Shown here piece by piece: positions 41,468 to 62,762 of a stretch of DNA of 64,000 nt. The stretch's first letter is position 1. Each line of letters starts with the position of its first letter. The notes beneath the pieces were generated by a model. That model was given only the letters and a program-made list of their open reading frames with translations. It was not told where the DNA came from and made no database searches. A program made the translations under genes and the position numbers. The stretch spans positions 62,001 through 126,000 of the forward strand of contig NZ_PVTD01000003.1 in the NCBI RefSeq assembly GCF_003003255.1. Reading direction: 5' to 3'. This DNA is from Aliiruegeria haliotis (GTDB lineage Bacteria; Pseudomonadota; Alphaproteobacteria; Rhodobacterales; Rhodobacteraceae).

Positions 41468-41552
41468 TCTCACCAAAGCTCTGAAACTGTTGCCAGGCTA
41501 GCTGGCGTCCTCTGGACTCTTTCGCGTCCCAGGCGTGTCATCCGTCACACGT

Positions 41553-42410: not shown

Positions 42411-42445
42411 TCAACGGTTCTCCGGTTTGCTTCCAAACACTTTGC

Positions 42446-44863: not shown

Positions 44864-45192
44864 CAAGAGCCTCCATCAGGGGCGACGGCGCAAGGCAGCT
44901 ACCATGCGTGTTCTCGATCGCACCGAGGCAACACCGAACCTCCCTCTGAGTGCTGGAGACCGGCCCTGCCGTCACAATTGCCCAAAGCCCCGCCGATTGC
45001 GGCGCCAGGAAGGTCCCACCGTTCGCCGGCGGTCGCCTTCGGACACTCGGCAATGAACGCCAATTCGGTTAACCAAGTGTTACTGATTTCACTAAAATTG
45101 ACTGGTCTGTCCTGTCCCCCACAGCAAAAGCTGCTACTGTGGATCGTGTTGCGGAAACCAGGTGGTGACCGACGGCGGCGTAGTCAGGTGCA
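44864..45192. promoter_or_regulatory. Divergent control region of the exopolysaccharide genes
   Basis: 329 bases between the divergent ATPase and sugar-transferase genes, which should contain both promoters. An AT-richer stretch around 45060-45110 includes the perfect palindrome GGTTAACC (45067-45074). No regulator can be assigned to it. No open frame here looks real. Confidence 0.45.
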
Positions 45193-46252: not shown

Positions 46253-47536
46253 TTACCCACCAAGCACGCTCGGCAGGGTCATGGAGATTGCCGGCACGTA
46301 GGTCACGAGGATCAGCGCCACGAGAATGGCCAGGTAGAAGGGAAGGATGGACTTCAACGTGTCCTCGATCCGGATCTTGCCCACGGCGCATCCCGTGAAG
46401 AGACAGGTCCCAACCGGCGGGGTGCAAAGCCCGAGGCCGAGGTTCACCAGCATCATGATCCCGAATTGGATCGGGTCCATTCCAAGGTCCTTGGCGATGG
46501 GCAGGAAGATCGGCGTGCAGATCAGGATCAGCGCCGCCATGTCCATGATCATACCCAGAACCAGCAGCATCATGTTGATCATGAGCAGGATCATGATCTT
46601 GTTGCTGGAGATGCTGACCAACAGGTTGGAGAGCTTGTCGGGGACCTGATAGATGACCAGAAGGTAGGCAAATGCACCGGCGAAGCCGATCAGGATCATC
46701 ACCATGGCCGTTGTACGCACCGCGGAGGTGAGCGCCGTGGTGAACTCCTTCCAGCCGAGCGTCCGGTAGAAGAAGGCAGTGAGGACCACCGCGTAGATCG
46801 CTCCGAAAGCGCCCGATTCCGTCACCGTGAAGATACCCGAAAGCACACCGCCCACGATGATCACTGCAGTGATCAGCCCGGGAACAGCGGTTGCACCCGT
46901 GCGCGCAACCTCTCCCCACCCGGGGAACGGTTCAGCAGGGTACTTGCGCTTGATGGCGATGAAATAGGCCGCCACGGCCAAACACAGACACATCATCACG
47001 CCCGGCACGACACCGGCCAGAAAGAGCTTGGATACCGAGATGCCGCCGCCTGCCGCCACGGCATAGATGATCATGTTGTGGCTGGGTGGGATTACGATAC
47101 CGGCAATGGACGATGTGACTGTCACGTTGACGGCGTAGTCGGCATGGTAGCCGCGCTGCTTCATCACCGGGATCAGGATCGAACCGAGCGCCGAGATGTC
47201 GGCGATGGCCGAGCCGGAGATGCCGCCAAAGAGCATCGAGGACAGGATGTTCACCGTCGCCAGTCCGCCCCGGATGTGACCCACAAGGGTCGAGGCGAAC
47301 TTGACAAGCCGGATCGCGATGCCGCCGTGCAACATGATCTCGCCGGCAAAGACAAAGAACGGAATTGCCAGCAGCGCGAAGACGTTGATCCCAGCCATGG
47401 TGCGCTGGAAGGTCAGCAGAAGCGGGAACCCTTCGAACCACATTGCTGAGGCTGCCGCAATACCCATGGCGAAGGCCACTGGGACACCGATAACTACACT
47501 TCCGAAGAAGATTCCAAGGAGAATGCCAAGTCCCAT
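46253..47536 (-). CDS. dctM: TRAP transporter large permease (DctM type)
   Basis: 427-residue polytopic membrane protein with about 12 hydrophobic segments. The family motifs FGGISGSAIADISALGSILIP, PPSHNMIIYA, FTVTESGAFGAIYA and LNLGLGLCTPPVGTCLF-like VNLGLGLCTPPVG are present. It is the ion-coupled translocation subunit of the tripartite transporter. It follows the small permease by three bases. Substrate specificity resides in the binding protein. Confidence 0.95.
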   Translation of the reverse strand: MGLGILLGIFFGSVVIGVPVAFAMGIAAASAMWFEGFPLLLTFQRTMAGINVFALLAIPFFVFAGEIMLHGGIAIRLVKFASTLVGHIRGGLATVNILSSMLFGGISGSAIADISALGSILIPVMKQRGYHADYAVNVTVTSSIAGIVIPPSHNMIIYAVAAGGGISVSKLFLAGVVPGVMMCLCLAVAAYFIAIKRKYPAEPFPGWGEVARTGATAVPGLITAVIIVGGVLSGIFTVTESGAFGAIYAVVLTAFFYRTLGWKEFTTALTSAVRTTAMVMILIGFAGAFAYLLVIYQVPDKLSNLLVSISSNKIMILLMINMMLLVLGMIMDMAALILICTPIFLPIAKDLGMDPIQFGIMMLVNLGLGLCTPPVGTCLFTGCAVGKIRIEDTLKSILPFYLAILVALILVTYVPAISMTLPSVLGG

Positions 47537-47539
47537 AGT

Positions 47540-48079
47540 TCAGCTCTCCTCGTGGTGGACGGGATCGGGATAGCGTTCACCGTTCCGCCAGTAAATGACT
47601 CGAAAGACTGCCCGGCAGCCGGCGAAGAGCATGATCAGGCCGCCACTGCAAACCATTGCAAGGGTCCGGAAGCTCTCGGGAATATTCAGCATCGGCAACA
47701 GGGTGTCCCAGCCGAAGTTGAACAGCACGATCCCGCCGTAGAGCATGACGGCTCCGAAACTGGCGAGGATAATGTCGATGATGAAACGGAGAAAGCCGGA
47801 GACTTTCGGTCCGAGCGCGTCGCGGAACAGCGTTACGCCAAGGTGGAATTGCTCATGGATGCCGACGGCAGCTCCAAGGAAGGCGATGTAGGCAACCAGA
47901 AGGAGGCCCAATTGCTCGACCCACGTCGGAGTCACGTTCATCACGTAGCGTCCCCAGACGAGCCAACCGAAGGAGGCAACGAGGACGGTGAGTGCGATGG
48001 CGCAGATAATGAGGCAGAGCTTTGAAAGGAGGCCTAGCCACCCCTCGATCCTCTGCACGAAGGCTAGGCTGTTTGACAT
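47540..48079 (-). CDS. dctQ: TRAP transporter small permease (DctQ type)
   Basis: 179-residue membrane protein with four hydrophobic helices. The motif YVMNVTPTWVEQLGLLLVAYIAFLG (read from about residue 45) with the W-E-E-like segment, followed by GAAVGIHEQFHLGVTLF, is typical of DctQ. It partners DctM. It lies between the large permease and the binding protein gene in the usual order P-Q-M on the minus strand. Confidence 0.93.
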   Translation of the reverse strand: MSNSLAFVQRIEGWLGLLSKLCLIICAIALTVLVASFGWLVWGRYVMNVTPTWVEQLGLLLVAYIAFLGAAVGIHEQFHLGVTLFRDALGPKVSGFLRFIIDIILASFGAVMLYGGIVLFNFGWDTLLPMLNIPESFRTLAMVCSGGLIMLFAGCRAVFRVIYWRNGERYPDPVHHEES

Positions 48080-48145: not shown

Positions 48146-49138
48146 TCACTCGAAGTTCTGGAACAGCTCGACGATCTCTTTCATGTCCGGGTTCTCGGCC
48201 AGGTACTTTTCATAGACCGGCGCCATGGCTTCCTGGAACGGTGTCTTGTCCTCGATCATATTGACCTCGACGCCACCGGCCTTGACGACTTCCATCGACT
48301 TGGCTTCGCGCTCGGCCCAGAGCTCGCGCTGAAGCATGGTCGAGTTCTTGCCAGCTTCCTTGACGATCTCTTGCTGTTCCGGGGTCAACGTGTCCCAGGT
48401 CTTCTTGGCGATGACCAGGACTTCCGGAATGATCAGGTGTTCAGAGATCGAGTAGTAAGGAGCGACCTCGTAGTGAGCGGTCGACTCGTAGGACGGCGGG
48501 TTGTTCTCGGCGCCGTCGACCACGTTGGTCTTGATCGACTGGTACACTTCAGCGAAGGCCATCGGCGTTGCGTTGCCACCGAGGGCGGCGATCATGTCAA
48601 CGAACAGGTCGTTGTTCATGACGCGAACCTTCATCCCGGTCATGTCTTCCGGCGTGTTGATCGGGCCCTTCGAGTTGTAGAAGGAACGCGCGCCGGCGTC
48701 ATAGTAACCAAGTGCGATCACGCCTTTTTTCTCAAGACCGGCGGCGAGTGCCTCACCCGGCGCGCCGTCCATGGCACGGTGCATCTGATCGATGCTCTTG
48801 AAGATAAACGGCAGAGACACAACGTTGGCTTCGGGAGCCACAGGGCCCCACGGACCAAGGCTGAACTCAGCGAAGTCGATGATGCCGAGGCGTACCTGCT
48901 CGATGGCGTCGGGCTGCGAGCCGAGAACGCCGTTGTGGAACACCTTGCCCTTGATCTCTCCACCGGTCTTCTCGGTGACTTCGGCCATGAAGGCCTCCAT
49001 ACCGTGCGAAACCGGATAGTCTTCGACGTGGATGTTCCAACCACGCCAGTCCTTGGCCTCCGCCATCGGCGCTGCAACAACGGCAGCAAGAGCGATTGCG
49101 CTCGCGAAGGCGGTTGCCCCGAAACCTCTAAATGCCAT
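48146..49138 (-). CDS. dctP: TRAP transporter substrate-binding protein (DctP type), probably for a uronate or other carboxylate
   Basis: 330-residue periplasmic binding protein. The signal peptide (about 1-28, ending AEA) precedes the mature domain. R172 in MKVRVMNNDL is the carboxylate-clamping arginine of DctP proteins, and R151 in GARSFY is a second candidate ligand arginine. VDGAENNPPSY is also typical. GGGAGG lies upstream of the ATG. The ligand is inferred from context: the divergent regulators and alginate genes suggest an unsaturated or simple uronate. Other organic acids remain possible. Confidence 0.9.
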   Translation of the reverse strand: MAFRGFGATAFASAIALAAVVAAPMAEAKDWRGWNIHVEDYPVSHGMEAFMAEVTEKTGGEIKGKVFHNGVLGSQPDAIEQVRLGIIDFAEFSLGPWGPVAPEANVVSLPFIFKSIDQMHRAMDGAPGEALAAGLEKKGVIALGYYDAGARSFYNSKGPINTPEDMTGMKVRVMNNDLFVDMIAALGGNATPMAFAEVYQSIKTNVVDGAENNPPSYESTAHYEVAPYYSISEHLIIPEVLVIAKKTWDTLTPEQQEIVKEAGKNSTMLQRELWAEREAKSMEVVKAGGVEVNMIEDKTPFQEAMAPVYEKYLAENPDMKEIVELFQNFE

Positions 49139-49187: not shown

Positions 49188-49203
49188 TTACAAATATTTA
49201 CAA
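49188..49203. promoter_or_regulatory. Candidate operator upstream of the TRAP operon
   Basis: TTACAA at 49188-49193 is repeated at 49198-49203, about one helical turn apart, in an AT-rich stretch about 50 bases upstream of dctP. The same hexamer occurs in the control regions of both GntR-family genes. Binding by either regulator is inference. Confidence 0.45.
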
Positions 49204-49917: not shown

Positions 49918-49935
49918 ACAAATTTTACAAATTTC
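49918..49935. promoter_or_regulatory. Candidate operator upstream of the first GntR-family gene
   Basis: Two adjacent nine-base units, ACAAATTTT and ACAAATTTC, form a tandem repeat containing TTACAA. It lies about 130 bases before the first regulator gene, in a locally AT-rich stretch. It resembles the sites near 49188 and 50972. Confidence 0.45.
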
Positions 49936-50064: not shown

Positions 50065-50784
50065 ATGAGCGAAGCCCCGAAGCAGGCGGCACCGAGACCG
50101 GTGCGTCCGGGAACGCTGTCCGATCAGATATACGAAAGGATCCTGTCGGCCATTTCTGACGATACCTATCCGGTTGGCAGCAAACTCCCTACCGAACACG
50201 CGCTTTGCGAAGAATTCGGTGTCTCCCGTCCCGTTCTCCGCCAGGCCCTTCGGCAATTGCGTGAAGACGACGTGATTCAATCCCGGCAAGGCTCGGGATC
50301 CTTCGTGAAGCGGCGCCCGGAAGGCGCGGCGCTCGATTTTGCCCCGGTTGGGTCGATCGCGGATATTCAGCGAACTTTCGAGTTCCGCGCCGCGATCGAG
50401 GGGGAGGCCGCCTTCCTGGCCGCTGAGCGTCGAACGGAAGACGACCTGAAAGCCATTCGCGCGGCGATCGACGAGCTTGATCGGTGTATCCGGGAGAACC
50501 TTCTTGGAGTGGATGCAGACGAGATGCTGCACGCCGCGATCTGCCGGGCATCCGACAACCAGTATTTCGTGGCGGCCCGCGCGTCCATGCGGGAGAACAT
50601 CCTCACCGGGATGAGTCTCACGCGGAACCTGTCGCTGACAAAGACACGCCAACGGCTCGATCTAGTGCAGAACGAGCACTACCAAATCGTCGATGCCATC
50701 GAGCGCCAGGACCGCGAAATGGCGCGCAGGGTCATGCGCGAACATGTCGAAAACGCCCGCAAGCGGGTGTTCGAAGGCGAGTGA
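50065..50784 (+). CDS. GntR-family regulator, FCD (FadR-like) subgroup
   Basis: 239-residue transcription factor. The winged helix-turn-helix is at about 18-85 (LSDQIYERILSAI, GSKLPTEHALCEEFGVSRPV, LRQALRQLREDDVI, GSGSFV). The C-terminal FCD domain (about 105-235) has the metal/ligand histidines in DEMLHAAICRAS, NEHYQIVDAI and MREHVENARKR. FCD-GntR proteins respond to organic and sugar acids. It is divergent from the TRAP operon and probably controls it. GGGAGG upstream fixes the ATG at 50065. Confidence 0.92.
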   Translation: MSEAPKQAAPRPVRPGTLSDQIYERILSAISDDTYPVGSKLPTEHALCEEFGVSRPVLRQALRQLREDDVIQSRQGSGSFVKRRPEGAALDFAPVGSIADIQRTFEFRAAIEGEAAFLAAERRTEDDLKAIRAAIDELDRCIRENLLGVDADEMLHAAICRASDNQYFVAARASMRENILTGMSLTRNLSLTKTRQRLDLVQNEHYQIVDAIERQDREMARRVMREHVENARKRVFEGE

Positions 50785-50971
50785 GTCGCCCCCGCAATGG
50801 CGCCGGGCAAGATGCAAGACCTCACGAAAACGTTTGCAAATTCCGGCGCCATCAAGGCGGGCTAATATGCCAGTGTAAAATCTGGGACCCCTCAAGTCGG
50901 TTGAAATCCAATTCAAATCGCTGAAAATAAGGACACTTCCAGACCCTCACGAACCGAACTACCGTATCAAT

Positions 50972-50988
50972 TTTCACAATTTGTAAAG
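50972..50988. promoter_or_regulatory. Candidate operator upstream of the alginate operon
   Basis: TTTCACAA and TTGTAAAG form an imperfect inverted repeat around a single T. The right arm is the complement of the TTACAA motif seen near 49188 and 49918. It lies about 75 bases before the second regulator gene, in an AT-rich promoter-like segment. Confidence 0.5.
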
Positions 50989-51060
50989 ATTTATATAGAC
51001 AAATAACGCTACTGAGATATTAGATTGCCCGCAAAGCAGACCCTTGGGAGGGGGATCTTC

Positions 51061-51840
51061 GTGGAGGCAACTCAAACTCAGATGCGTGCGGAGCGGCGCA
51101 AGTCCGTCTCTGAACTGCTGGCGGGGATCACGCTCTCGCCGCATGAGAGCAAGGTCGCACAGATATTCGAAGCCCTCAGGAACCTGATCGTCGAAATCCG
51201 CCTTCTGCCCGGACAGCAGATCTCCGAGATGGAAGTGGCGGACGCGCTCACGACAAGCAAGACGCCGGTGCGCGAGGCACTGATACGTCTGGACGATGCC
51301 GGCCTGGTGAACATCGTCCCGAAGAGCGGCACATATGTTACTCCAATTCGCGTCGACAGATTTCTCGAAGCCTGCTTCATCCGCATCAATCTCGAAATCG
51401 GCGCCGTCCGGAAGGCGGCACAGAAGGCCCACCTGACGCCCGATGCTTATTGCAAACGCCTCCATTCGAGCATCGAGGAGCAGGAAGCCGCGATCGCCAA
51501 TGACGACTACGACGCCTTCTTCGAGCTTGACGAAGCCTTTCACCGGAGCTTCTACGAACTCGCCGGTGTTCCCGGTGTCTGGTGGACGGTGAAAGGTGTG
51601 CAATCGGATGTCGATCGCATCCGCCACCTGAAGAGGATCAACAAGATCCGCCGTGGGCCGGCAATCATCGAGGAGCATCGGGAAATCGCCACCAGCATCT
51701 GCGGTGGCAACCCGGCAGCGGCAGAGACTGCCCTGCTGAACCACATCGGCGGCCTCGGAAGCGAGATCGAGACTCTCTCTCGCCAGCCCGGGCTTCTTGA
51801 TCATATCGAAACACTCAACGCCGCTGTCCGGCGGTCGTAA
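51061..51840 (+). CDS. GntR-family regulator heading the alginate operon
   Basis: 259-residue GntR/FCD regulator. The wHTH is at about 30-100 ([50 protein letters not shown]). The FCD-type C-terminal domain has [17 protein letters not shown] and [11 protein letters not shown] chose GTG at 51061 because GGGAGGGGG lies six bases upstream. TTG at 51025 and ATG at 51082 are alternatives. It precedes the ABC-ATPase gene by 44 bases in the same direction, so it is probably the first gene of the operon and responds to an uronate-derived ligand. Confidence 0.88.
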
Positions 51841-51884
51841 CCCTTGCGCGCTCGACGCGCATCAACTCCGGGACGGGAGGAAAG

Positions 51885-52979
51885 ATGTCTGGCGTATTTC
51901 TCGAAGGTATCGTGAAGCGATACGGTGCCGTGGAGGTCGTTCATGGAATCGACCTCGAAATCAAACCGCAGGAGTTCGTCGTGCTCGTTGGCCCGTCGGG
52001 CTGCGGAAAATCCACGACGCTGCGAATGATTGCCGGACTCGAAGAAATCTCTGACGGCACGCTTCGTATCGGAGACAGGGCGATGAACCGTGTCGCCCCG
52101 AAAGACCGCGACGTGGCGATGGTGTTCCAGAACTATGCGCTCTACCCGCACCTCAACGTGGCCGACAACATGGCTTTCGGATTGCGCATCCGGAAGGTGC
52201 CCAAGGACGAGATTGCCAAGTCCATCGATGAGGTGGCCAAGATCCTTGGCCTCACCGAGTACCTCGAACGTCGCCCGGCAGACCTCTCCGGTGGTCAGCG
52301 CCAGCGTGTCGCCATGGGCCGCGCCATCGTGCGCCACCCTGATGTGTTCCTTTTCGACGAGCCGCTCTCGAACCTCGACGCCAAGCTCAGAACGCAGATG
52401 CGCGCCGAGATCAAGCGGTTGCACAAGCGCCTCGGCGTCACCTCTGTCTACGTGACACACGACCAGGTCGAGGCGATGACACTGGCGGATCGCATCGTCG
52501 TCATGGCCGATGGAAACATCGAGCAGATAGGTACGCCGATGGAATTGTTCAACAATCCGGCCAACACTTTCGTCGCGGGCTTCATTGGCTCGCCGCCGAT
52601 GAACCAGTTCGAAGCGGTGCTGGAGGATACCGATCAAGGCCCGATTGCCCGCGCCAATGGCACCCTCATCCAGCTCCAAGGGCAAGAGGCCCTGCGTGGC
52701 GCCGCAGGGCGCAACGTGATTGTCGGCATTCGCCCGGAGCACGTCATGCTGAACGCCGAGCCCGGCACCGCCGAGATTCCGATCAGCCTGGACCTGATCG
52801 AGACACTTGGCTCCGAGGCGCTCCTGCACACACACGTCGGCAATGAGACCTTTGTCGCCAAGGTGGAGACACATGGCGAAATCGGCCACCTGAACGGCGT
52901 CAATGCGCTCCATGTGAAGCCCGAGCGCGTCAAGCTTTTCGACAAGGATACCGGCCGCGCAATCGGCCAGGCGGCCTGA
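51885..52979 (+). CDS. algS: ABC transporter ATP-binding protein, AlgS-like
   Basis: 364-residue MalK/UgpC-type ATPase. Walker [10 protein letters not shown] (36-44), Q-loop region [10 protein letters not shown], signature [14 protein letters not shown], Walker [16 protein letters not shown] and the H-loop VYVTHD are intact. The C-terminal MalK-type regulatory domain ([12 protein letters not shown]) is present. With the following two permeases and binding protein it forms a complete importer. The gene name follows the Sphingomonas alginate importer, assigned by the binding protein's resemblance. GGGAGG upstream. Confidence 0.9.
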
Positions 52980-52989
52980 GGACAGCACA

Positions 52990-53967
52990 ATGGCAATGGT
53001 CGACAAAGAATCGTCAGCCGGGACAGAGACGATCGTCCCCAAGCTGACCATCGCGCAGCGGCTTGACCGCATCCAGATGCACCTGAAGCAGGAATGGCAG
53101 ATCTATGCCATGCTTGCGCCGCTGGTCATCTGGTTCCTCTTGTTCAACTACAGGCCGATGTATGGCCTGCAGATCGCCTTCAAGGACTACTCGGTATTCC
53201 TCGGGATCGAGGGCAGCCCCTGGATCGGGTTCGAGCATTTCGAGACCCTTTTCCAGAGCGACCAGTTCGTACGGGCCTTCAAGAACACGATCATCATTTC
53301 GCTGCTCAGCCTGTTCATCGGCTTTCCCATGCCGATCATCCTGGCGCTTATGTTCAACGAGATCCTGAGCGAGACCTACAAGCGGACCGCGCAGACCATC
53401 GTCTACCTGCCGCACTTCATCTCCTCGGTGATCATCGCCGGTATCATCATCACGGCCTTCTCGCCGTCCGCCGGTATCGTGAACACCTTCCTGGGGTGGT
53501 TCGGAGTGGAACCGATCTACTTCCTGACGAAACCGGAATGGTTCCGGCCGATCTTCATCGGCGCGGGCATCTGGCAGGAAGCGGGCTTCCAATCCATCGT
53601 GTTCCTGGCAGCGATCGCGGGTGTGAACCCATCGCTCTATGAATCGGCCGTGGTGGACGGGGCGAACCGCTGGCAAATGATGTGGAAGATCACCATTCCC
53701 TGCATTCTGCCCACAATCATCATCATGCTGATCATCCGTATCGGCAACCTGCTGGAAGTCAGCTTCGAGATGATCATCCTGCTGTATCAGCCCGCGACCT
53801 ATCAGACGGCGGACGTCATCAACACGTTCATCTACCGTCAGGGTCTTGTCGGTGGTCAGTACGATGTCGCAGCCGCAGCCGGTCTCTTCAACGCTGTCAT
53901 GGCCTTCGTGCTCGTCATGAGCGCCAACGCGATCGCCAAGCGCGTTTCCAGAACGTCGCTGTGGTAA
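52990..53967 (+). CDS. algM1: ABC transporter permease, AlgM1/LplB-like
   Basis: 325-residue permease with six hydrophobic helices. The N-terminal WQIYAMLAPLVIWFLLFNYRPMYGLQIAFKDY pattern (in short blocks from about residue 36) is typical of the LplB/AlgM1 group. The EAA loop ESAVVDGANRWQMMWKITIP contacts the ATPase. It lies ten bases after algS. It pairs with the next permease to form the transmembrane channel. Confidence 0.9.
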   Translation: MAMVDKESSAGTETIVPKLTIAQRLDRIQMHLKQEWQIYAMLAPLVIWFLLFNYRPMYGLQIAFKDYSVFLGIEGSPWIGFEHFETLFQSDQFVRAFKNTIIISLLSLFIGFPMPIILALMFNEILSETYKRTAQTIVYLPHFISSVIIAGIIITAFSPSAGIVNTFLGWFGVEPIYFLTKPEWFRPIFIGAGIWQEAGFQSIVFLAAIAGVNPSLYESAVVDGANRWQMMWKITIPCILPTIIIMLIIRIGNLLEVSFEMIILLYQPATYQTADVINTFIYRQGLVGGQYDVAAAAGLFNAVMAFVLVMSANAIAKRVSRTSLW

Positions 53968-53979
53968 GGGGATAAGTCT

Positions 53980-54861
53980 ATGAAAAACATGAACCTCTAC
54001 TCCCGCGGCGACAAGTTCTTCGTCTACACGACGATGGTGTTGATCGGGATCTTCACGCTCTCCACGCTCTACCCGTTCATCTATATCGCAGCGATGTCCT
54101 TCTCTTCGGGCTTCGCGGCGCGGGCGGGCACCGTGGTCTTGACGCCGATCGACCTGACTCTGGCCGCCTATGAGCGGGTGATGTCGGAACCTGCCTTCTG
54201 GAACTCCTACAAGAACACCTTCATCTACACCTTCGGCGGAACCCTCACCTCGCTCTTGCTGGTGATCCCCGGGGCCTACGCGCTCTCGCGGCCCAATCTC
54301 TGGGGGCGGCGCTTCTGGAACCTGATGGTGGCGTTCACGATGTGGTTCAACGCCGGCATGATCCCGATCTGGCTCAACTTTCGTGATCTCGGCCTGCTGG
54401 ACAGCTACTTCGGCATCATCATCGGCTTCGCCCTCAACGCATTCAACGTCATCCTGCTCAGGAACTTCTTCGAGAGTATCCCGGAAAGCTTCCAGGAGGC
54501 GGCGCGAATGGACGGGGCCAATGAGTTCCAGATCCTCTGGAAGGTCTTTGTCCCGCTGTCGAAACCGGCCATCGCAACGATCACGCTCTTTTGCATCGTA
54601 TCCCGGTGGAACGGCTTCTTCTGGGCCATGGTGTTGCTGACCGACGAAGGAAAGATACCGTTGCAGGTGTATCTGCGGCACACGATATCGGCGCTTTCGG
54701 ACGACGAGGAATTCTCGTCAACACTCCTGACCGCTCCGTACTCAGTGGAGACCGTGACCGCAGCGATCATCGTCTGCTCCATCATCCCGGTCCTCATGAT
54801 TTACCCGTTCGTCCAGAAATACTTCAACAAGGGCATCATGCTCGGAGGTGTGAAGGAATGA
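53980..54861 (+). CDS. algM2: ABC transporter permease, AlgM2/LplC-like
   Basis: 293-residue permease with six hydrophobic helices. The EAA motif QEAARMDGANEFQILWKVFVPLSKP is clear. The C-terminus FNKGIMLGGVKE is the family ending (FxKGxMxGxxKG). It lies 12 bases after algM1. The stop overlaps an in-frame ATG of the binding-protein gene (ATGA), which could couple translation. Confidence 0.9.
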   Translation: MKNMNLYSRGDKFFVYTTMVLIGIFTLSTLYPFIYIAAMSFSSGFAARAGTVVLTPIDLTLAAYERVMSEPAFWNSYKNTFIYTFGGTLTSLLLVIPGAYALSRPNLWGRRFWNLMVAFTMWFNAGMIPIWLNFRDLGLLDSYFGIIIGFALNAFNVILLRNFFESIPESFQEAARMDGANEFQILWKVFVPLSKPAIATITLFCIVSRWNGFFWAMVLLTDEGKIPLQVYLRHTISALSDDEEFSSTLLTAPYSVETVTAAIIVCSIIPVLMIYPFVQKYFNKGIMLGGVKE

Positions 54862-54899
54862 TCACTCAACTCGCAAGCAAACCCAGGGAGGGAAATTCC

Positions 54900-56456
54900 A
54901 TGCGAATTGCGAAACTGACGGCTGTTGCTCTGGCGACATCGGCACTGACTTCGGTCGCGCCGGCATGGGCCGATGACCATCACAAGATCACGGAGGAGCC
55001 GCTGGAGCTCACGGTGCACATGCACCACAAGCGCTACACCAAGTACGACGAGGAGTGGCCGGTTGAACAGGCCGCCAGGGAGATGACGAACATTCATCTC
55101 AAGAACGTGACGGTGGGCTCGAACTCGACCAGCTCGGAAGAAGCGTTCAACCTGCTTCTGGCCTCGGGCAAGATCCCGGACATCGTCGGCACGTCGCGGA
55201 TCAAGGACTTCGTGTTCCAATACGGTCCGCAGGGCGCTTTCCTGCCGCTCAACGACCTGATCGACGAGCATGCGCCGAATCTGAAGGCCTATTTCGATGA
55301 GCGTCCGGAAGTGAAGGCCGCGCTCAGTGCCGCCGACGGCAACCTCTACTACATCCCGTACCTGCCGGACGGGAAGTACGGTCGTGCGTTCTTCATCCGC
55401 TACGACTGGCTGGACAAGCTCGGCCTTGAAGTGCCGAATACAGTGGAAGAGTACGAAGCCGTGCTTCGTGCCTTCAAGGAACAGGATCCGAACGGAAACG
55501 GCGTGGCAGATGAAGTTCCCTACTTCGCACGTCAGTGGGAAGAACTGATCCGCCTCGTCACGCTCTGGGGTGGCCGCTCCTCGGGGTCGGATACCTATCA
55601 CGACTTCTATGTCGAAGACGCCACGATCAAGTATCCGTACATGGGCGAAGGTTACAAAGAAGGCATCAAGAACCTGGCTCGCTGGTACGAAGAAGGCCTG
55701 GTCGACGCCGAAATCTTCACCCGCGGATCGTCCTCGCGTGAGTTCCTGCTCTCTGAAAACCTTGGCGGTGCGACCCACGACTGGTTCGCTTCTACCGCAG
55801 GTTACAATTCGAGCCTGCAGGACAGCATCGAAGGGTTTACCTTCAAGGCGATGGTTCCCCCCGAGAACGTCAATGGCGACCGGATCGAAGAGCACCGTCG
55901 AATCCCGATCAAGCCTGACGGCTGGGCCATCGGCGGCACCAACAAGCACCCGGTCGAAACCATCAAATATTTTGACTTCTGGTTCACCGAAGAAGGCCGG
56001 AACCTCGTGAACTTTGGTGTCGAAGGTGAATTCTGGGACATGGTCGACGGCAAGCCGACGTTCAAGGAAGAGGTCCTGAACAACGGCCGCCCGATGAACT
56101 CGCAGCTCTACGAGGTCGGCGCGCAGCTCCACGCTCGCGGCTACTTCCAGAACTACGAGTACGAGAAACAGTGGTCGAACGAATACGCTCTCGAAGGCAT
56201 TGCGCTCTACGATGAGGGCGACTACCTGATCGATCAGTTCCTGGGTGTCGCGCTCAACGCCGACGAGCAAAAGGTCTATGACCGGTACTTCTCTCAAGCC
56301 CGGACCTACATGCTCGAGAAGCAGCAGGCCTGGATCCTCGGTTCCTCCGATGTGGAAGCCGAATGGGATGCGTACCTGGCCGAGCTGGATGACATGGGCA
56401 TGAACAAGGTGCTTGAAGTCATGCAATCGGCCTACGAACGCCAGTACGGCGGCTAA
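54900..56456 (+). CDS. algQ: Periplasmic alginate-oligosaccharide-binding protein, AlgQ-like
   Basis: 518-residue solute-binding protein with a signal peptide (MRIAKLTAVALATSALTSVA, ending AWA). The mature sequence follows the remembered Sphingomonas sp. A1 AlgQ2 closely: LTVHMHHK, DEEWPVEQAAREMTNI, LLLASGKIPDIVG, RWARSSGSD-like GGRSSGSDTYHDFY, GGATHDWFAST. The calcium-binding loop DPNGNGVADE (196-205) is conserved. ATG at 54900 gives the signal peptide and has GGGAGG upstream; ATG at 54858 is the coupled alternative. It should capture alginate oligomers in the periplasm for the AlgS/M1/M2 importer. Confidence 0.9.
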   Translation: MRIAKLTAVALATSALTSVAPAWADDHHKITEEPLELTVHMHHKRYTKYDEEWPVEQAAREMTNIHLKNVTVGSNSTSSEEAFNLLLASGKIPDIVGTSRIKDFVFQYGPQGAFLPLNDLIDEHAPNLKAYFDERPEVKAALSAADGNLYYIPYLPDGKYGRAFFIRYDWLDKLGLEVPNTVEEYEAVLRAFKEQDPNGNGVADEVPYFARQWEELIRLVTLWGGRSSGSDTYHDFYVEDATIKYPYMGEGYKEGIKNLARWYEEGLVDAEIFTRGSSSREFLLSENLGGATHDWFASTAGYNSSLQDSIEGFTFKAMVPPENVNGDRIEEHRRIPIKPDGWAIGGTNKHPVETIKYFDFWFTEEGRNLVNFGVEGEFWDMVDGKPTFKEEVLNNGRPMNSQLYEVGAQLHARGYFQNYEYEKQWSNEYALEGIALYDEGDYLIDQFLGVALNADEQKVYDRYFSQARTYMLEKQQAWILGSSDVEAEWDAYLAELDDMGMNKVLEVMQSAYERQYGG

Positions 56457-56473
56457 ACAGGACTCCTCCCGGT

Positions 56474-56496
56474 GTCGCCCGCTTCCGGCGGGCGGC
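56474..56496 (+). promoter_or_regulatory. Intercistronic hairpin between the binding protein and lyase genes
   Basis: GTCGCCCGC (56474-56482) pairs with GCGGGCGGC (56488-56496) around a TTCCG loop. It is followed by TCCTCTTTT, so it could attenuate read-through or protect the 3' end of upstream mRNA. Binding-protein genes often have such stems to raise their expression over downstream genes. Confidence 0.6.
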
Positions 56497-56532
56497 ATCC
56501 TCTTTTGAACCGCTATCCAAGGACACCCGTAG

Positions 56533-58866
56533 ATGTCTTCGTCTGCAATGAAAGACGCCACCGCCTATCTCGACGAACCGAGAGCCGGGCGGCTGAACAT
56601 TCAGTATTCCCCTGCCGGCGGCGAAGCAGTGGTCGAAAACCCGCCCCGCTTCACCTGGCTGCCTGTTGTCGAGGAGGATGCGCGCTATGTCCTGCGGGTT
56701 TCCCGTGACCCATCCTTCCCCCGGAAAGGCACTCGGGTTTTCTCCAATATTCCTTTGAATTTCCATACGCCTGACATCGTTTTCGAGCCCGGTGAATACC
56801 ACTGGAGCTACGCCGAGTGGGACGAGGGTTCAAAGAAACCTGCCACCGCGTGGAGTCAGACCCGAGCATTCGTCATCCCCGACAGCGTGCCCGAAGTGCC
56901 GCTGGCAAGCCGTGATACCCGGTATGCCAACACCAACATGGCGCATCCGCGCCTTTGGCTCGGGCCAAAGGAACTCGACGCCTTCAAGGAGGCCGTCGCC
57001 GCCGATCCAGAACACTGCACCTGGTCGACCTTCTACGAAAAGTCGGTCAAGCCGTGGATCGACCGACCGATCATTGAAGAAATCAGGCCATACGAGAACA
57101 ACCAGCGTACGCCACCGGTGTGGCGCCAGGGCTATATCGACTGCCAGGAAGTCCTCTACGCAATCCGTCACCTCGCCATCGCCGGACGCGTGCTGGACGA
57201 TCAGGCTCTGCTTGACCGCTCCAAGGAATGGCTACTGTCGGTGTCCGATTGGGATGTGCATGGCACGACCTCACGGTCCTACACCGATGAATGGGCTTAT
57301 CGTATCGCCAATGCGCTCACCTGGGGATACGACTGGCTCTATGACCAGTTGACCGAGGATGAACGCACGAAGGTGCGCAAGGCGCTGCTCGAACGCACCC
57401 GCGACGTGGCAGATCACGCCATCAAGAACGCCAATATCCACCTGTTCCCCTATGACAGCCATGCGGTGCGCTCTGTCTATGCCGTGATTATCCCGGCCTG
57501 CATCGCCATGCTGGGCGAGGAGGAAGACGCCCGGGAGTGGCTCGATTTCTCCGTCGACTACCTCTACACCGTCTATTCTCCATGGGGGGACCCCGATGGG
57601 GGCTGGGCCGAGGGACCGCACTACTGGATGACGGCAATGGCCTACCTCATCGACGGGGCAAACTACCTGAAGAATTTCGCCGGCCTCAATCTCTACGAGC
57701 GTCCGTTCTTCAAGAACACGGGCTACTTCCCGCTGTATACCAAGGGTCCGCTGACACGCCGCTTCACGCTCGGCGACGACAGCACCATGGGCGACAGCGT
57801 CTGCCTGAAGGTGGCCTACAACCTGCGCCAATACGCGGGCGTCACCGGAAACGGCGCGTTCCAGTGGTACTATGACGAAGTGAAGCGGAACGATCCGGGC
57901 ACGGAGATGATGTTCTACAACTACGGTTGGTGGGACCTGAACTTCGACGAGATGTGCTACCGGCACGACTGGCCGAGTGTCGATCCGGAGCCCCCGGCGG
58001 ATGCGGATCGTCTCAAGTGGTTCAAGGGGACCGGATGGGCCGCGATCCAGCACCGCATGGGCAACATCGACGAGCAGATCGGCTTCGTGTTCAAGTCGAG
58101 CCCCTATGGCTCGATCAGCCACAGCCACGGCGATCAGAACAGCTTCTGCCTGTCGGCGTTTGGAGAAGACCTCGCGGTCAACTCCGGCTACTATATTGGC
58201 TTCAACACGTCCATGCACCGCAACTGGCGACGCCAGACGAAGTCGAAGAATGCGATCCTGATCAACGGCAAGGGTCAGTATGCCGATGGCAACAAGGCTC
58301 TGGCCATGCAGGCCACCGGCACGATCCTCAACGCGGAGGAATGCGGCGATCACATCTACATCAAGGGCGATGCCACCGAGGCCTACAAGGTGCAGTCCCC
58401 TGAAGTGACCAATGTGACCCGCGAAGTCTACTTCGTGAACGACAGCTATTTCGTGATCGTCGACAGCGTAGATGCTTCGGAACCGGTGTCGCTCGACTTC
58501 CTGATGCACGCCAACGGACCATTTCAGGTCGGGTCCAACAGCTTCCGCTATACTGGTGAACGCGCCGGGTTTTATGCCAAGGTTGTCTTCTCCGAAGCCG
58601 GTGCACCAGAGATCACTCAGGCCGAAGGCTACGAGGGAACCGATCCGAAAGAGTACGAAGGCCTGCCTGTGGGCAGCCTGGTTCGGGCATCCTATCCCAA
58701 GGCGCAGCGCCACCGGATCGCGACGCTTGTCGTACCCTACCCCAAGGACGCACCTCGCCGTGTGTTCAACTTCATCGATGATCAGGGCTACGACGCGAAC
58801 CTCTACTTCACGGATGCCGACGAGAACACCTTCCAGGTCGTCGTTCAGAAACTGATGAAAGCCTGA
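56533..58866 (+). CDS. PL15 exo-type oligoalginate lyase (Atu3025-like)
   Basis: 777-residue polysaccharide lyase resembling the Agrobacterium exolytic alginate lyase Atu3025 along its length. An N-terminal beta domain (about 1-125, ENPPRFTWLPVV) precedes an alpha-barrel (YIDCQEVLYAIRHLAIAGRV) and a heparinase II/III-type beta-sandwich (SSPYGSISHSHGDQNSF). H310 (FPYDSHAVRS) and Y364 (GGWAEGPHYW) sit one residue off the catalytic His311 and Tyr365 that I recall for Atu3025. There is no signal peptide, so it should release 4-deoxy-5-ketouronic acid from imported oligomers in the cytoplasm. AAGGA precedes the ATG. Confidence 0.93.
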   Translation: MSSSAMKDATAYLDEPRAGRLNIQYSPAGGEAVVENPPRFTWLPVVEEDARYVLRVSRDPSFPRKGTRVFSNIPLNFHTPDIVFEPGEYHWSYAEWDEGSKKPATAWSQTRAFVIPDSVPEVPLASRDTRYANTNMAHPRLWLGPKELDAFKEAVAADPEHCTWSTFYEKSVKPWIDRPIIEEIRPYENNQRTPPVWRQGYIDCQEVLYAIRHLAIAGRVLDDQALLDRSKEWLLSVSDWDVHGTTSRSYTDEWAYRIANALTWGYDWLYDQLTEDERTKVRKALLERTRDVADHAIKNANIHLFPYDSHAVRSVYAVIIPACIAMLGEEEDAREWLDFSVDYLYTVYSPWGDPDGGWAEGPHYWMTAMAYLIDGANYLKNFAGLNLYERPFFKNTGYFPLYTKGPLTRRFTLGDDSTMGDSVCLKVAYNLRQYAGVTGNGAFQWYYDEVKRNDPGTEMMFYNYGWWDLNFDEMCYRHDWPSVDPEPPADADRLKWFKGTGWAAIQHRMGNIDEQIGFVFKSSPYGSISHSHGDQNSFCLSAFGEDLAVNSGYYIGFNTSMHRNWRRQTKSKNAILINGKGQYADGNKALAMQATGTILNAEECGDHIYIKGDATEAYKVQSPEVTNVTREVYFVNDSYFVIVDSVDASEPVSLDFLMHANGPFQVGSNSFRYTGERAGFYAKVVFSEAGAPEITQAEGYEGTDPKEYEGLPVGSLVRASYPKAQRHRIATLVVPYPKDAPRRVFNFIDDQGYDANLYFTDADENTFQVVVQKLMKA

Positions 58867-58879
58867 TCCCAACCCTTCA

Positions 58880-58903
58880 GCCGGCCCCGACGCGCGGGCC
58901 GGC
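58880..58903 (+). promoter_or_regulatory. Intercistronic hairpin between the lyase and kdgF
   Basis: GCCGGCCC (58880-58887) pairs with GGGCCGGC (58896-58903) around an eight-base loop. There is no strong T-run, so partial termination or mRNA processing is more likely than full termination. Confidence 0.5.
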
Positions 58904-58934
58904 GTCCTCCTGCCACACCCCACGGAGAAAACCG

Positions 58935-59270
58935 ATGGACGTAACCAACTTCTGCTTTTCCAAGGATAACGAACTCGAAGATCTCGGCGGTGGCGTCAGC
59001 CGTCGCATGGCCGTCTATGCGGACAATGCCATGGTCGTCGAAGTGCACTTTGAAGAGGGCGCTGTCGGCGCGGTGCACAGCCACCCGCACGAACAGATCT
59101 CCTACGTCGTTTCCGGCGCGTTCGAGTTTCAGATTGGTGACGAGACAAAGATCGTGCGCGCTGGCGACACGACCTACAAGCAACCCAACATCCCGCATGG
59201 TGCCAAGTGCCTCGAAAAGGGCATGTTGCTCGATTTCTTCACGCCCCACCGCGAGGACTTCGTGAAGTAG
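58935..59270 (+). CDS. kdgF: KdgF-type cupin, unsaturated uronate linearisation
   Basis: 111-residue single cupin. Metal-binding HSHPHEQ (H48, H50 with nearby H52/Q54) and H88 in NIPHGA are visible, with the small barrel core YVVSGAFEFQIG. KdgF enzymes open the 4,5-unsaturated uronates released by pectin and alginate lyases to the linear keto form. That fits exactly downstream of a PL15 lyase. It is the last gene of the apparent operon; no strong terminator is obvious before the tRNA. Confidence 0.88.
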   Translation: MDVTNFCFSKDNELEDLGGGVSRRMAVYADNAMVVEVHFEEGAVGAVHSHPHEQISYVVSGAFEFQIGDETKIVRAGDTTYKQPNIPHGAKCLEKGMLLDFFTPHREDFVK

Positions 59271-59566
59271 GCTCGCCGACGACCGCGGCCCGGTGTGACG
59301 CTCCCGCGTGCACCGGTTCCGGGAGTTGAAGGCGCCAGACCCCGGTCGCCCCCCAAAAGATGGCGCCGGGCACCGCCCACAATCCCGTCAAGATCATGTA
59401 CCGCAAACCGCATGTCCAACAGCGCGTACGGGCCCGAAAGCCGGTTTGGGCGGCGCACGGAAACACCGTATTTGACTGCAGCAGACCGTGAAACCGACGC
59501 CCCTGGTGACGACATCGGATATTCGCTTGACGCACCCGCATCAAATTCATAAGAAACGCGGGCCTT

Positions 59567-59642
59567 AGGGGTATAGCTCAGTTGGTAGAGCGACGGTCTC
59601 CAAAACCGTAGGTCGCGGGTTCGAACCCTGCTGCCCCTGCCA
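59567..59642 (+). tRNA. trpT: tRNA-Trp (anticodon CCA)
   Basis: 76-base cloverleaf with encoded CCA. The acceptor AGGGGTA pairs with TGCCCCT. The D-loop has AGCTCAGTTGGTAGAGC, the anticodon arm ACGGT-CTCCAAA-ACCGT gives CCA, and the T-arm has GGTTCGAACCC. It is the only RNA gene I can support. secE and nusG, which often follow tRNA-Trp, are not downstream. Confidence 0.97.
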
Positions 59643-59797
59643 GAATATTCAAATAAATCCGTGAATTACCTGTCGATGCCGCCAATGCTCTGCGTCGGAT
59701 CATCCCGGCTCGGACCCGTTTCAATCCCGGCACAGCGTGCATTCGGCGATGAACCCATCCTCGATCAGTGCCCGGCGGCGAGGTCCCAGTCGTTCCT

Positions 59798-60544
59798 TCA
59801 GGAAAAGATGGTCCCACCATTGACGTCCAAGCAGGCCCCGGTGATGAAAGATGCCTCGTCCGAGGCCAGGAACAACGCCAGATCCGCGACTTCCTCCGCC
59901 GATCCCTCGCGCTGCAGTGCACTTGCATTGGCGATTCTCGCTCGGACCTCCTGCTTGGTGAAGATATTGTGGAAATCGGTATCAATCAGGCCGGGACACA
60001 TGGCATTCACGCGGATGGCCGGGCCGAGTTCCTTTGCCATCCCACGCGTCATTGCCATGATTGCCCCCTTGGCCATGCCATAAGCAACCGCTCCGTGGCC
60101 ACCACCGTCACGTCCCGCCTGAGAGGCGAGCATCGTCACCGAACCGCCGTCGTTCATGAAGGGATGTGCCGCCTGTACGAGAAGCATGGCTGATGTCACG
60201 TTCACATCAAAAACCGCGCGCCAGTGGTCGAGCGTCATTTCCGGAAGTGTCTTTCGCCCGATCAGCCCACCGGCGTTGGGAATAAGGATATCGATACTGT
60301 CCCACTCCGAGACGGTGCGTTCAACGAGCGCCCGAACGGCCTTCGGCCGTGTCATGTCGCCCTGCACGGAGAACGCCCGCCCGCCTGCAGCAAGGATTTC
60401 CTCGACCGTGCGTTCTGCGCCGTCCGCACTTCGCAGGTAGTTGACCGCCACCGCGCATCCCTCGCTGGCCAGCCGCAGGGCACATGCCCGCCCGATATCC
60501 CGTCCACCCCCGGTGACGATTGCGACCTTGCCGTCCAGTTTCAT
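59798..60544 (-). CDS. SDR oxidoreductase, probable DEH reductase (A1-R-like)
   Basis: 248-residue short-chain dehydrogenase. TGGGRDIG (11-18), S141, Y155 and K159 form the active site. Diagnostic stretches NAGGLIGRKTLPEM and GLIDTDFHNIFTKQEVRARI closely parallel the remembered Sphingomonas DEH reductase A1-R (NAGGLVGRKPLPEI and a TDxFHADKTQDVRDRI-like region). It would reduce 4-deoxy-L-erythro-5-hexoseulose uronate to 2-keto-3-deoxygluconate. GGAGG lies upstream of the ATG at 60544. It is on the opposite strand, beyond the tRNA, so it needs its own promoter. Confidence 0.83.
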   Translation of the reverse strand: MKLDGKVAIVTGGGRDIGRACALRLASEGCAVAVNYLRSADGAERTVEEILAAGGRAFSVQGDMTRPKAVRALVERTVSEWDSIDILIPNAGGLIGRKTLPEMTLDHWRAVFDVNVTSAMLLVQAAHPFMNDGGSVTMLASQAGRDGGGHGAVAYGMAKGAIMAMTRGMAKELGPAIRVNAMCPGLIDTDFHNIFTKQEVRARIANASALQREGSAEEVADLALFLASDEASFITGACLDVNGGTIFS

Positions 60545-60926: not shown

Positions 60927-62762
60927 ATGGATACGCGAAAATCTGTATTTGACGGCGGACTCTACGAGTTGACACACACCGCGAGCGAAAAGAACGTGCT
61001 CTTTGCCGACACGTTCCAGGACGACCCGGAAATGGCGCTTCAACTGACGGAGGCTCCCTTGCCCACGGGCCGGCCAGCCAACGTGGCTCGTACCGCCGCC
61101 CTTCCCCAGGACACTTTGACGGTGAAGCTCGTCGTAGACAGCGGCGCGCAAAAGCAGGTCATTGGTGGCGTTGCCGAGATCGGTGGGAAGGTTGTCTCCC
61201 GCGGGCCAAACGTTCTTTTGGCGAATATCCCGAGGTCCAACATTGCCGCGCTTGACGACATCGCGGGCCTTCGTCGTGCCGAGTTGAGCCGCAAATTGCA
61301 GTTGCGCCTCGACGAGGCGCGCGGTCCTGCGACCCGGGCGGATATTGCCGCTGCCAGCCACCCCGCCCTGAACGGCGAAGGTGTCGTCGTTGGTATCGTG
61401 GACAGCGGCGTGGACTGGACGCACCCCGATTTTCAGACCGGCTCCAACGACAGCCGCCTGGAGTTGTTCATCCATGCCCATCGTCATGCGGCGACCGACC
61501 AGGACATATTCGACACCTTCGACAAGGCGCAGATCGACACTGCCCTGGCAGGCGGAGGCAACGTTCCACAAGGCGACCCCAACGGCCACGGAACACACTG
61601 CCTGTCGATCGCTGCAGGCAACGGTCGCGCGTCGCAGGACGCGCAGTATCGCGGTGTGGCCCCGGGCGCGACGTTGATGGCGGTTCGCTCTGACTCGCTG
61701 TTCGACACGCATACGATCGAGGGCATACGGAGGGTCTTCGCCGCCGCCGGTGACCGGCCAGCGGTCGTGAACCTCTCTCTGGGCGGCCACATCGGACCGC
61801 ACGACGGCACAAGCGCGCTGGAGAACGTGATCTCCAAGGAAAGCGGACCGGGACGGATCGTGGTTGTGGCCGCGGGAAACGAGGCACAGGACAGGATCCA
61901 TTTTCGAGGGGAACTGATCGAGGGTTCCGCCCTCAATATCGAGTTCACCATTCGCGACTCGCCCCAATGGATCGATGTGTGGATCCCTAGGGGGGACGAT
62001 GTCGACGCCTCGGTCATTGATCCCGACGGGACGGAAGTTGCCCTGGATGGACAGTTGCAGCAGACCGCGGCGGGTCAGTTCATCGGCGATCTGCGCAGGG
62101 ACCAGTTCAATGGAGACACCAACCTCTTCTTCGCCGTGGGCGCGCTCCAGAGCAATCGCCGCTGGACCCTGCGGTTGAACGCGACAAGGGTCCTTCAGGG
62201 CGAGGTGCATGCCTGGGCACACACGGCCAGCTTCGACAACGCGCGCAACATCTTCATGTCCCAGACCTCGCCCCTTCATTCGATCGGCATGCCTGCGACC
62301 GAGGAACGCGCAATCTCCGTAGGCTCCTTTGTCAGCCGTGCGGGCATCCTCCCGGGCGACCCGCCGCTGCCGGGACTCGCTGGGGGACAGATCTCGCCCT
62401 TTTCCAGCAACGGACCCACCCGGACCGGCGTGCAGCGACCGGTGATCGCCGGGCCTGGTCAACATGTGGTCGCCGCCCTTGCCAGCAACAGCACTCTGGC
62501 CAACGATCCGAGGTTCGCGCCGCGCCGCCTGCCGGGCAACCAGTACATTTCGATTCAGGGTACCAGCATGGCAACGCCGTTTCTGACCGGCGTCATCGCC
62601 CTCATGTTGCAACAGGAACCGCACCTGACGCCTGAGGACATCCAGCTTCGGCTGCGGGCAACCGGACAAAGGGACGACGACACTGGCGCGGTCTGGAACC
62701 CGGCATTCGGCTACGGCAAAGTGGATGTCGAGGCACTTCTGGACTATCTTGTCGTGACCTGA
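60927..62762 (+). CDS. S8 family (subtilisin-like) serine peptidase
   Basis: 611-residue subtilase. The triad is D159 (GIVDSGVDWTHPDF), H221 (NGHGTHC) and S547 (GTSMATP). A propeptide-like domain occupies about 60-128 (TLTVKLVVDSG, VVSRGPNVLLANIPRSN). An inserted beta-rich domain of roughly 100 residues lies between the histidine and serine portions (about 330-440). There is no signal peptide, so the enzyme appears cytoplasmic or unconventionally secreted. The following gene starts 14 bases downstream and encodes a protein like the propeptide domain. Confidence 0.9.
   Translation: MDTRKSVFDGGLYELTHTASEKNVLFADTFQDDPEMALQLTEAPLPTGRPANVARTAALPQDTLTVKLVVDSGAQKQVIGGVAEIGGKVVSRGPNVLLANIPRSNIAALDDIAGLRRAELSRKLQLRLDEARGPATRADIAAASHPALNGEGVVVGIVDSGVDWTHPDFQTGSNDSRLELFIHAHRHAATDQDIFDTFDKAQIDTALAGGGNVPQGDPNGHGTHCLSIAAGNGRASQDAQYRGVAPGATLMAVRSDSLFDTHTIEGIRRVFAAAGDRPAVVNLSLGGHIGPHDGTSALENVISKESGPGRIVVVAAGNEAQDRIHFRGELIEGSALNIEFTIRDSPQWIDVWIPRGDDVDASVIDPDGTEVALDGQLQQTAAGQFIGDLRRDQFNGDTNLFFAVGALQSNRRWTLRLNATRVLQGEVHAWAHTASFDNARNIFMSQTSPLHSIGMPATEERAISVGSFVSRAGILPGDPPLPGLAGGQISPFSSNGPTRTGVQRPVIAGPGQHVVAALASNSTLANDPRFAPRRLPGNQYISIQGTSMATPFLTGVIALMLQQEPHLTPEDIQLRLRATGQRDDDTGAVWNPAFGYGKVDVEALLDYLVVT

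Follow-up and report, generated by a model that had tools for sequence, protein, structure and literature searches.

A Locus for the Use of Alginate Fragments in Aliiruegeria haliotis, Probably with Two Import Routes and a GntR-Type Switch

Introduction

Alginate is a polymer of brown seaweed. How does a Roseobacter-type bacterium that carries an alginate-type gene cluster bring fragments of this polymer into the cell, and do the genes that adjoin the cluster belong to the same task? The question is raised by a stretch of 64,000 nucleotides of Aliiruegeria haliotis (assembly GCF_003003255.1, contig NZ_PVTD01000003.1, positions 62,001 to 126,000 of the forward strand), here called the window, whose own numbering is used below. 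An earlier note, made from the letters of the window, had described at 51061-60544 an uptake and degradation locus for alginate oligomers with a GntR regulator, an ATP-binding cassette (ABC) importer, a PL15 lyase, a KdgF-type cupin, and a short-chain dehydrogenase/reductase (SDR). Its span left out an adjoining uronate-type tripartite ATP-independent periplasmic (TRAP) transporter and a second GntR regulator, referred to below as GntR_up. The core of that interpretation holds, with details partly wrong. We consider it likely that the locus serves the use of alginate fragments, probably through two import routes, with GntR_up as the switch and with a distant beta-hydroxyacid dehydrogenase (beta-HAD) as a probably co-induced reductase of 4-deoxy-L-erythro-5-hexoseulose uronate (DEH).

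The Alginate Operon

All the genes that had been named were found where they had been placed. The run GntR-AlgS-AlgM1-AlgM2-AlgQ-PL15-KdgF lies entirely on the plus strand, from 51061 or 51082 to 59270, with intergenic gaps of 10-76 nucleotides (nt), so the claim of one apparent operon stands for GntR to KdgF; it fails for the SDR, which lies past a tRNA-Trp and on the opposite strand. The GntR/FCD regulator (51061..51840, +) is the first gene of the operon and starts with GTG at 51061 or ATG at 51082, the latter being the better fit to GGAGG. It is followed by an AlgS-like ABC ATPase of the UgpC/MalK class (51885..52979, +; NF008653, 499.9 bits against a cut-off of 432), an AlgM1-like permease (52990..53967, +), and an AlgM2-like permease (53980..54861, +), both matching PF00528. 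For comparison, 394 genomes of the family, nearly one per genus, were surveyed with a threshold of E <=1e-50 for PL15 relatives, and 44 other PL15 neighbourhoods (L038-L081), several of which end at contig edges or hold a broken PL15, were tallied for synteny; the thresholds of the synteny and motif counts were chosen after a first look and the related loci are not independent. The importer cassette is nearly constant in these neighbourhoods (AlgQ in 44, AlgM1 in 43, AlgM2 in 43, and AlgS in 42).

The binding protein (54900..56456, +), with a signal peptide recognized by eye, scored 589 bits against AlgQ1 and 569 against AlgQ2 among solved structures, the 5gub/5xs8 branch coming next at 387. 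In the alignment it keeps the DPNGNG.ADE loop of AlgQ1 and AlgQ2, of which the DPNGNG part is presumably the Ca binding loop. The ATPase and the two permeases are linked to this AlgQ-like protein and were assigned to the importer with it.

The lyase (56533..58866, +; 777 aa) scored 1056 bits against Atu3025 of Agrobacterium (3a0o, "Oligo alginate lyase"), residues 11-772 aligning to 12-773 with the N-terminal domain included, and its second-best solved match, an Atu3025 mutant aside, is the heparinase II/III-like 6lja at 87 bits. Seven PL15 active-site positions are kept, R198, E253, H310, R313, Y364, H530, and Y554. H310, Y364, and H530 match His311, Tyr365, and His531, named as catalytic residues of Atu3025 in two papers (PMC11921355, PMC8286568), and Glu254, Arg314, Arg199, and Tyr555 were mapped as the VBAly15A number + 85, not by naming. 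An eighth position mapped by this offset (195) is Pro and is not claimed as conserved. By match and by residues, the protein is a PL15_1 exolytic oligoalginate lyase in its predicted activity.

Another uronate polymer, heparin-like or ulvan, might be thought of as the substrate, given that some members of the DUF4962 and Hepar_II_III families are glycosaminoglycan lyases, that PF16332 and PF07940 occur in heparinase-like proteins too, and that 6lja ("Heparinase II/III-like protein") is a distant match. We regard this as very improbable in view of the distance between 1056 and 87 bits for the lyase and between 589 and 387 for the binding protein, and of a PL7 protein in the genome. A heparinase-like substrate was rejected on the lyase and binding-protein scores.

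The last gene of the operon encodes a cupin (58935..59270, +) that aligns with 5fpx ("pectin degradation protein," 84 bits) and 5fq0 ("KDGF," 68 bits); two cupins of no stated function, 7zyb and 2pfw, outscore these KdgF structures with 104 and 100 bits. Its residues H48, H50, Q54, H88, D100, and R106 line up with 5fpx and 5fq0 at the His/His/Gln/His and Asp/Arg positions that we take to have functional roles in KdgF. The assignment as a KdgF-type cupin, predicted to open the ring of unsaturated uronates, is thus supported. The regulator, the oligomer importer, the lyase with its catalytic positions, and the cupin of the earlier note were all borne out by family matches, by the AlgQ1/AlgQ2 and Atu3025 scores, and by residue alignments, and the best matches of binding protein and lyase are of the alginate type, not of families for other glycans.

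The Adjoining TRAP Transporter and Second Regulator

Upstream of the operon, on the minus strand, lie genes for a large TRAP membrane subunit (DctM-like, 46253..47536), which is 92% identical in the related loci L002 and L003 and named from its order and homology to TRAP loci, a small membrane subunit (DctQ-like, 47540..48079), 86-87% identical in the same two loci, and a solute-binding protein DctP of the hexuronate type (48146..49138). GntR_up (50065..50784, +), a FadR-family GntR/FCD regulator with PF00392 and PF07729, is divergent from them. DctP has as its best match in the PDB the Sulfitobacter structure 4pf8 (528 bits), with 4mhf at 262 bits. For 4pf8 and the structures closest to it, the ligands are presumably glucuronate and galacturonate. 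Residues R151, R172, and N212 of DctP, identical in 5 orthologues, stand at what look like the corresponding motif positions, in an alignment that leaves out STM3169 itself; two Arg and one Asn form the signature of the uronate site described for STM3169, and 4mhf is given as a glucuronate/galacturonate binder in the same source (PMC7660916). The text covered of that source links proteins of the STM3169 type, unlike what is proposed here for DctP, with no polysaccharide degradation. The AlphaFold model of DctP (pLDDT 56.7) is too poor for inference on binding.

L002 and L003 have the transporter genes and GntR_up beside the operon in the order of the window (80-92% identity), whereas the arrangement differs in L004 and L007. 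A single cluster of L007 holds the ABC genes, PL15, KdgF, beta-HAD, SDR, TRAP, a PfkB kinase, and GntR_up. Across the survey, a DctP relative (E 1e-110 or better) is found in 32/45 genomes with PL15 and in 31/349 others. We read the transporter as a probable uptake module for monouronates whose products enter the alginate pathway at the level of DEH or 2-keto-3-deoxygluconate (KDG), a role that fits its matches and its placement.

An Operator-Like Motif Shared by the Two Systems

When the promoters of the window were aligned with those of L001-L003, a block TTGTAAA-ATT appeared ahead of the alginate operon, and the mirror image of this block ahead of dctP. The site upstream of the alginate operon is TTGTAAAGATTTAT (50981..50994, +) and that upstream of dctP is TTGTAAATATTTGT (49190..49203, -); a second, weaker site before the alginate operon (50969..50979, -) and one upstream of GntR_up (49920..49930, -) each differ from TTGTAAANATT by 1 mismatch. 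With at most 1 mismatch, TTGTAAANATT has 4 matches in the window, all in promoters of the locus, where shuffled sequences gave a mean of 0.54 and 0/100 reached 4. A longer form of the motif, allowing at most 3 mismatches, matched 9 times in the window, 7 in the locus and 2 elsewhere. In the whole genome of 5,044,743 bases there are 5 matches to TTGTAAANATTTRT with at most 1 mismatch, the reversed control giving 0. Two are those of dctP and the alginate operon, a third stands 46 nt before the open reading frame (ORF) of the beta-HAD reductase at C2:300947-301828, and the remaining two, C1:705956 and C1:706178, fall in another TRAP locus, which also encodes a D-mannonate dehydratase.

The beta-HAD gene (L082:8948-9829, minus) is far from the alginate locus, and its product is 88% identical to the beta-HAD inside the L007 alginate operon. 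A one-mismatch site precedes beta-HAD in the Aliiruegeria locus L001 too.

In a scan by locus of the 250 nt upstream with at most 2 mismatches (background 1.2%), from which L040 and L042 were dropped as duplicates of L004 and L007, the motif was present before dctP in 7/7 loci with GntR_up and in 2/19 without (one-sided Fisher 5.5e-5). By gene, with against without GntR_up, it precedes AlgS in 1/7 and 2/42 and the SDR in 1/6 and 1/51, and for GntR the count is 2/4. When 500 nt upstream of AlgS were scanned, the short form was present in 6/42 relatives, the background being 2.8% of random 500-mers. Within the regulon proposed here the operator link between GntR_up and the TRAP genes is the firmer part.

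Weighing a Joint Regulon

From the sites just described we infer that, in this genome, GntR_up would control the beta-HAD gene and both operons, alginate and TRAP, as one regulon. Several observations weigh against this. Only 15/44 PL15 loci have TRAP genes within the stretch retrieved, GntR_up is present beside the operon without TRAP genes in L001, and 31 genomes lacking PL15 carry a DctP relative; the transporter is therefore not alginate-specific. At the settings of the 250-nt scan, just 3/7 alginate loci with GntR_up (the window, L001, and L004) have the motif ahead of the operon, at GntR or at AlgS, and it is missing there in L002, L003, L007, and L038, a looser form also catching L002; where GntR_up is absent, 2/42 alginate loci have it in that place. 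Ahead of beta-HAD it stands in 1/17 loci (1/2 with GntR_up, 0/15 without). The count in the window is not an independent test because the promoters counted there had supplied the pattern, and one of the two C1 matches may be due to chance because it overlaps coding sequence. Further down the pathway, the KdgK candidate of the genome reaches 278 bits to the KdgK model, below the cut-off of 400.

It is quite possible that the TRAP genes and GntR_up are an independent unit for hexuronates (glucuronate, galacturonate, or mannuronate) which merely neighbours the operon, the operator then marking a general uronate regulon that senses a common intermediate. Such a unit would agree with the ligands of 4mhf, with the motif at the TRAP and D-mannonate dehydratase locus, and with its absence before the alginate operon in 4/7 GntR_up loci. 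SDR-TRAP units also stand alone in nine stretches without PL15 (L094-L098, L100, L101, L103, and L104) among 16 that were chosen for holding the SDR, mostly with DctP. Against independence, TRAP tracks PL15 in the genome counts given above, and several genera have it inside their alginate cluster. In A. haliotis, moreover, the motif precedes both the alginate operon and a beta-HAD homologous to the one in the alginate operons of relatives. We favour a joint role of the two systems.

At L099:10490-13727 (genome G364), remnants of AlgS, AlgM1, and PL15 lie between a GntR gene and an SDR-TRAP pair, apparently a decayed alginate operon of which the TRAP arm was kept. The second TRAP locus of A. 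haliotis (C1:703-710 kb, L113) encodes the D-mannonate dehydratase ManD (647 bits, cut-off 550), a GFO/IDH-type dehydrogenase (weak model matches), and, by eye, a possible AGE-family epimerase ORF. Its task may be to process the saturated residue at the end of alginate.

Candidate DEH Reductases

The SDR (59798..60544, -) had been described as resembling the DEH reductase A1-R and as completing the operon. It is convergent on the operon, 527 nt from KdgF, and the gap holds a tRNA-Trp (59567..59642, +); because of its strand and of this tRNA it is not a member, and a place in the operon was ruled out. In the stretch 59200-60000, 3 terminator-like sites (0.9 expected) and 0 promoter-like ones were predicted, none of which entered the argument. 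Its top matches among the best 60 of 689 solved structures are 4yqy of Sulfitobacter (333 bits) and 3edm of Agrobacterium (261 bits), both of no stated function. In the same set, 3afm (listed as a carbonyl reductase and, we presume, A1-R) scored 131 bits and 4tkl (listed as an NADH-dependent DEH reductase) 121, level with the 137-140 bits of FabG-type proteins. An A1-R type by sequence was ruled out, the A1-R and A1-R' scores being no better than those of the FabG type. The AlphaFold model (pLDDT 75) does not help, since fold comparison does not separate the SDR families.

The Ser-Tyr-Lys triad (S142, Y156, and K160, numbered one more than from the ATG) is present, as in most SDRs, with the spacing of the A1-R triad Ser150/Tyr164/Lys168 (PMC8778563). 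The coenzyme motif reads TGGGRDIG instead of TGxxxGxG, with Asp for the middle Gly; it is invariant in the 5 aligned sequences (window, L004, L006, L007, and L008), and since it is common to the whole clade it is no sign of a broken enzyme.

The SDR could be the main DEH reductase of the cell, a member of the locus by descent that moved from the place after PL15. This is possible, and doubtful in our view. A tree of 64 SDRs was made without L002, L003, L004, and L007 and without hits that contain stops or cover <=200 residues (<=180 in the case of its own genome). In it the window SDR groups with 40 PL15-adjacent SDRs in a clade of 42 rows (support 92/93, short of the starred level, the bootstrap not settled), and seven paralogues from its own genome fall outside. 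An orthologue (>=48% identity, same strand, <=2.5 kb downstream of PL15) is present in 38/44 loci, and a relative at E 1e-70 or better in 42/45 genomes with PL15 against 26/349 others. Its position on the opposite strand beyond the tRNA speaks against the role of main reductase, as do its long branch (0.72) and the fact that its closest orthologue (79%) lies in the same-genus genome G007, which has no PL15 and in whose surroundings there is no other window match. The motif scan found no operator-like site upstream of the SDR in the window, while beta-HAD has one; yet the G007 orthologue has a one-mismatch site 236 nt before it. DEH reductase is a plausible function for the SDR. We assign the part of co-induced DEH reductase probably to beta-HAD, with the nearby SDR as a second, divergent candidate.

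The Rest of the Pathway and the Proposed Routes

The earlier note had expected the cell to depend on external endolyases, while allowing for enzymes encoded elsewhere. The second alternative is the one found, as the genome encodes one PL7 protein of 763 aa with an F5/8 type C domain followed by PL7 and a signal peptide recognized by eye. The cell thus need not depend on foreign endolyases, and a genome devoid of them was rejected with this candidate present. No match to PF05426 or PF14592 was found in the genome (PL14, PL31, PL34, PL36, and PL39 not being searched for). Eda scores above its model cut-off, so that the search for lyases, kdgK, and eda outside the window was answered for PL7 and Eda and, for KdgK, by the candidate below cut-off. 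A second Hepar_II_III_C protein is encoded at C3:192122.

From gene identities, residues, synteny, and the positions and rarity of the motif we infer the substrates, the pairing of regulator and operator, the expression, and the acting reductase as follows. By the first route, alginate oligomers made by the PL7 endolyase from elsewhere in the genome, or by other microbes, would be carried into the cytoplasm by the AlgQ-like protein and AlgS-M1-M2. The PL15 exolyase would release unsaturated uronates, KdgF would open these to DEH, a DEH reductase would form KDG, and KdgK and Eda would complete the pathway. By the second route, free monouronates, whether DEH or unsaturated or saturated uronates, would enter through the TRAP transporter and go through the same later steps. 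GntR_up would bind TTGTAAANATTTRT-like sites in front of the two operons and of the beta-HAD gene.

More tentatively, a two-gate scavenging regulon may exist in Roseobacter-type bacteria, with the ABC importer for oligomers, the TRAP transporter for DEH or other unsaturated monouronates, and one FadR-family regulator acting via TTGTAAANATTTRT, to which beta-HAD and a mannonate branch would be added. If so, and once demonstrated, it would be the first case of alginate monomers imported by a TRAP transporter. Uptake of monomers from the alginate breakdown of other microbes is poorly known, and the literature consulted names MFS, SSS, and TTT systems for alginate products. A TRAP transporter and an oligomer importer under the same switch would also explain how Rhodobacteraceae scavenge both fragment sizes in kelp decay. 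In other respects the finding is solid, and the locus is an ordinary example of a pathway already known.

Distribution and Comparison with Known Systems

The combination with KdgF in a Roseobacter-type bacterium had been called noteworthy, which the survey does not uphold. PL15 is present in 45/394 genomes of the family, and a KdgF of the window type (>=50%) is directly downstream of PL15 in 14/44 loci. The same order GntR-S-M1-M2-Q-PL15-KdgF is found in Aliiruegeria sabulilitoris, Tropicimonas sediminicola, and an uncultured Tropicimonas, and beta-HAD in 15/44 loci. A second cupin type, 36-49% identical to the window KdgF, is present in 20/44. The AlyFRA lyase of Falsirhodobacter sp. alg1 is, we presume, of the PL7 family. 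The published text on that strain, of the same broad bacterial group, describes an alyFRB operon that, like the window, combines a UgpC-type ATPase, ABC permeases, a binding protein, PL15, and a DehR-like gene, with one endolyase elsewhere and the KDG kinase and aldolase elsewhere; unlike the window SDR, the DehR-like gene is inside the operon (PMC4866713). Its main text has 0 mentions of GntR, cupin, or KdgF, and describes the gene order of the Agrobacterium Atu3025 cluster, which shares the PL15_1 lyase with the window, as highly conserved with alyFRB (PMC4866713). KdgF is usual in alginate users, being absent from 5/32 genomes (PMC7874173) and present in the gene clusters of 21/26 strains (PMC8778563). 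Because PL15 is not rare in the family, the Falsirhodobacter operon is published, and KdgF is usual, the alginate locus as first described is of an already known type.

In Sphingomonas sp. A1, compared for its AlgSM1M2Q1Q2 and A1-IV and with AlgQ1 and AlgQ2 as the best solved matches of the binding protein, ABC import is likewise followed by cytoplasmic lyases, but the polymer itself is taken up via a pit and there are several lyases (PMC8286568, PMC8778563); the A1-R gene is far from the cluster (PMC8778563). The locus of Vibrio sp. C42 resembles ours in kdgF, kdgK, eda, and GntR regulators, and it has two reductases, an A1-R'-like SDR and a GarR-like protein, both active on DEH (PMC13390454). 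Unlike what is proposed here, a porin, SSS, and TTT are used and its own ABC genes are not induced; the word TRAP occurs twice in that paper, in passages of its reference list (PMC13390454). No report of a TRAP route or of a shared regulon for alginate was found in the open-licence literature, surveyed mostly at listing level. The pathway is thus already known, and dual import under one switch is its testable variant.

Neighbouring Genes

Next to the SDR, a subtilase-family (S8) peptidase is encoded at 60927-62762, for which no match is listed in L001-L008. To the left of the TRAP genes, the region 40526-44866 resembles a polysaccharide biosynthesis cluster in holding genes for an AAA ATPase (44015-44866) and a glycosyltransferase of the WecG/TagA type (40526-41476). 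Further off, at 28307-29776, a sulfotransferase domain is fused to a TPR protein.

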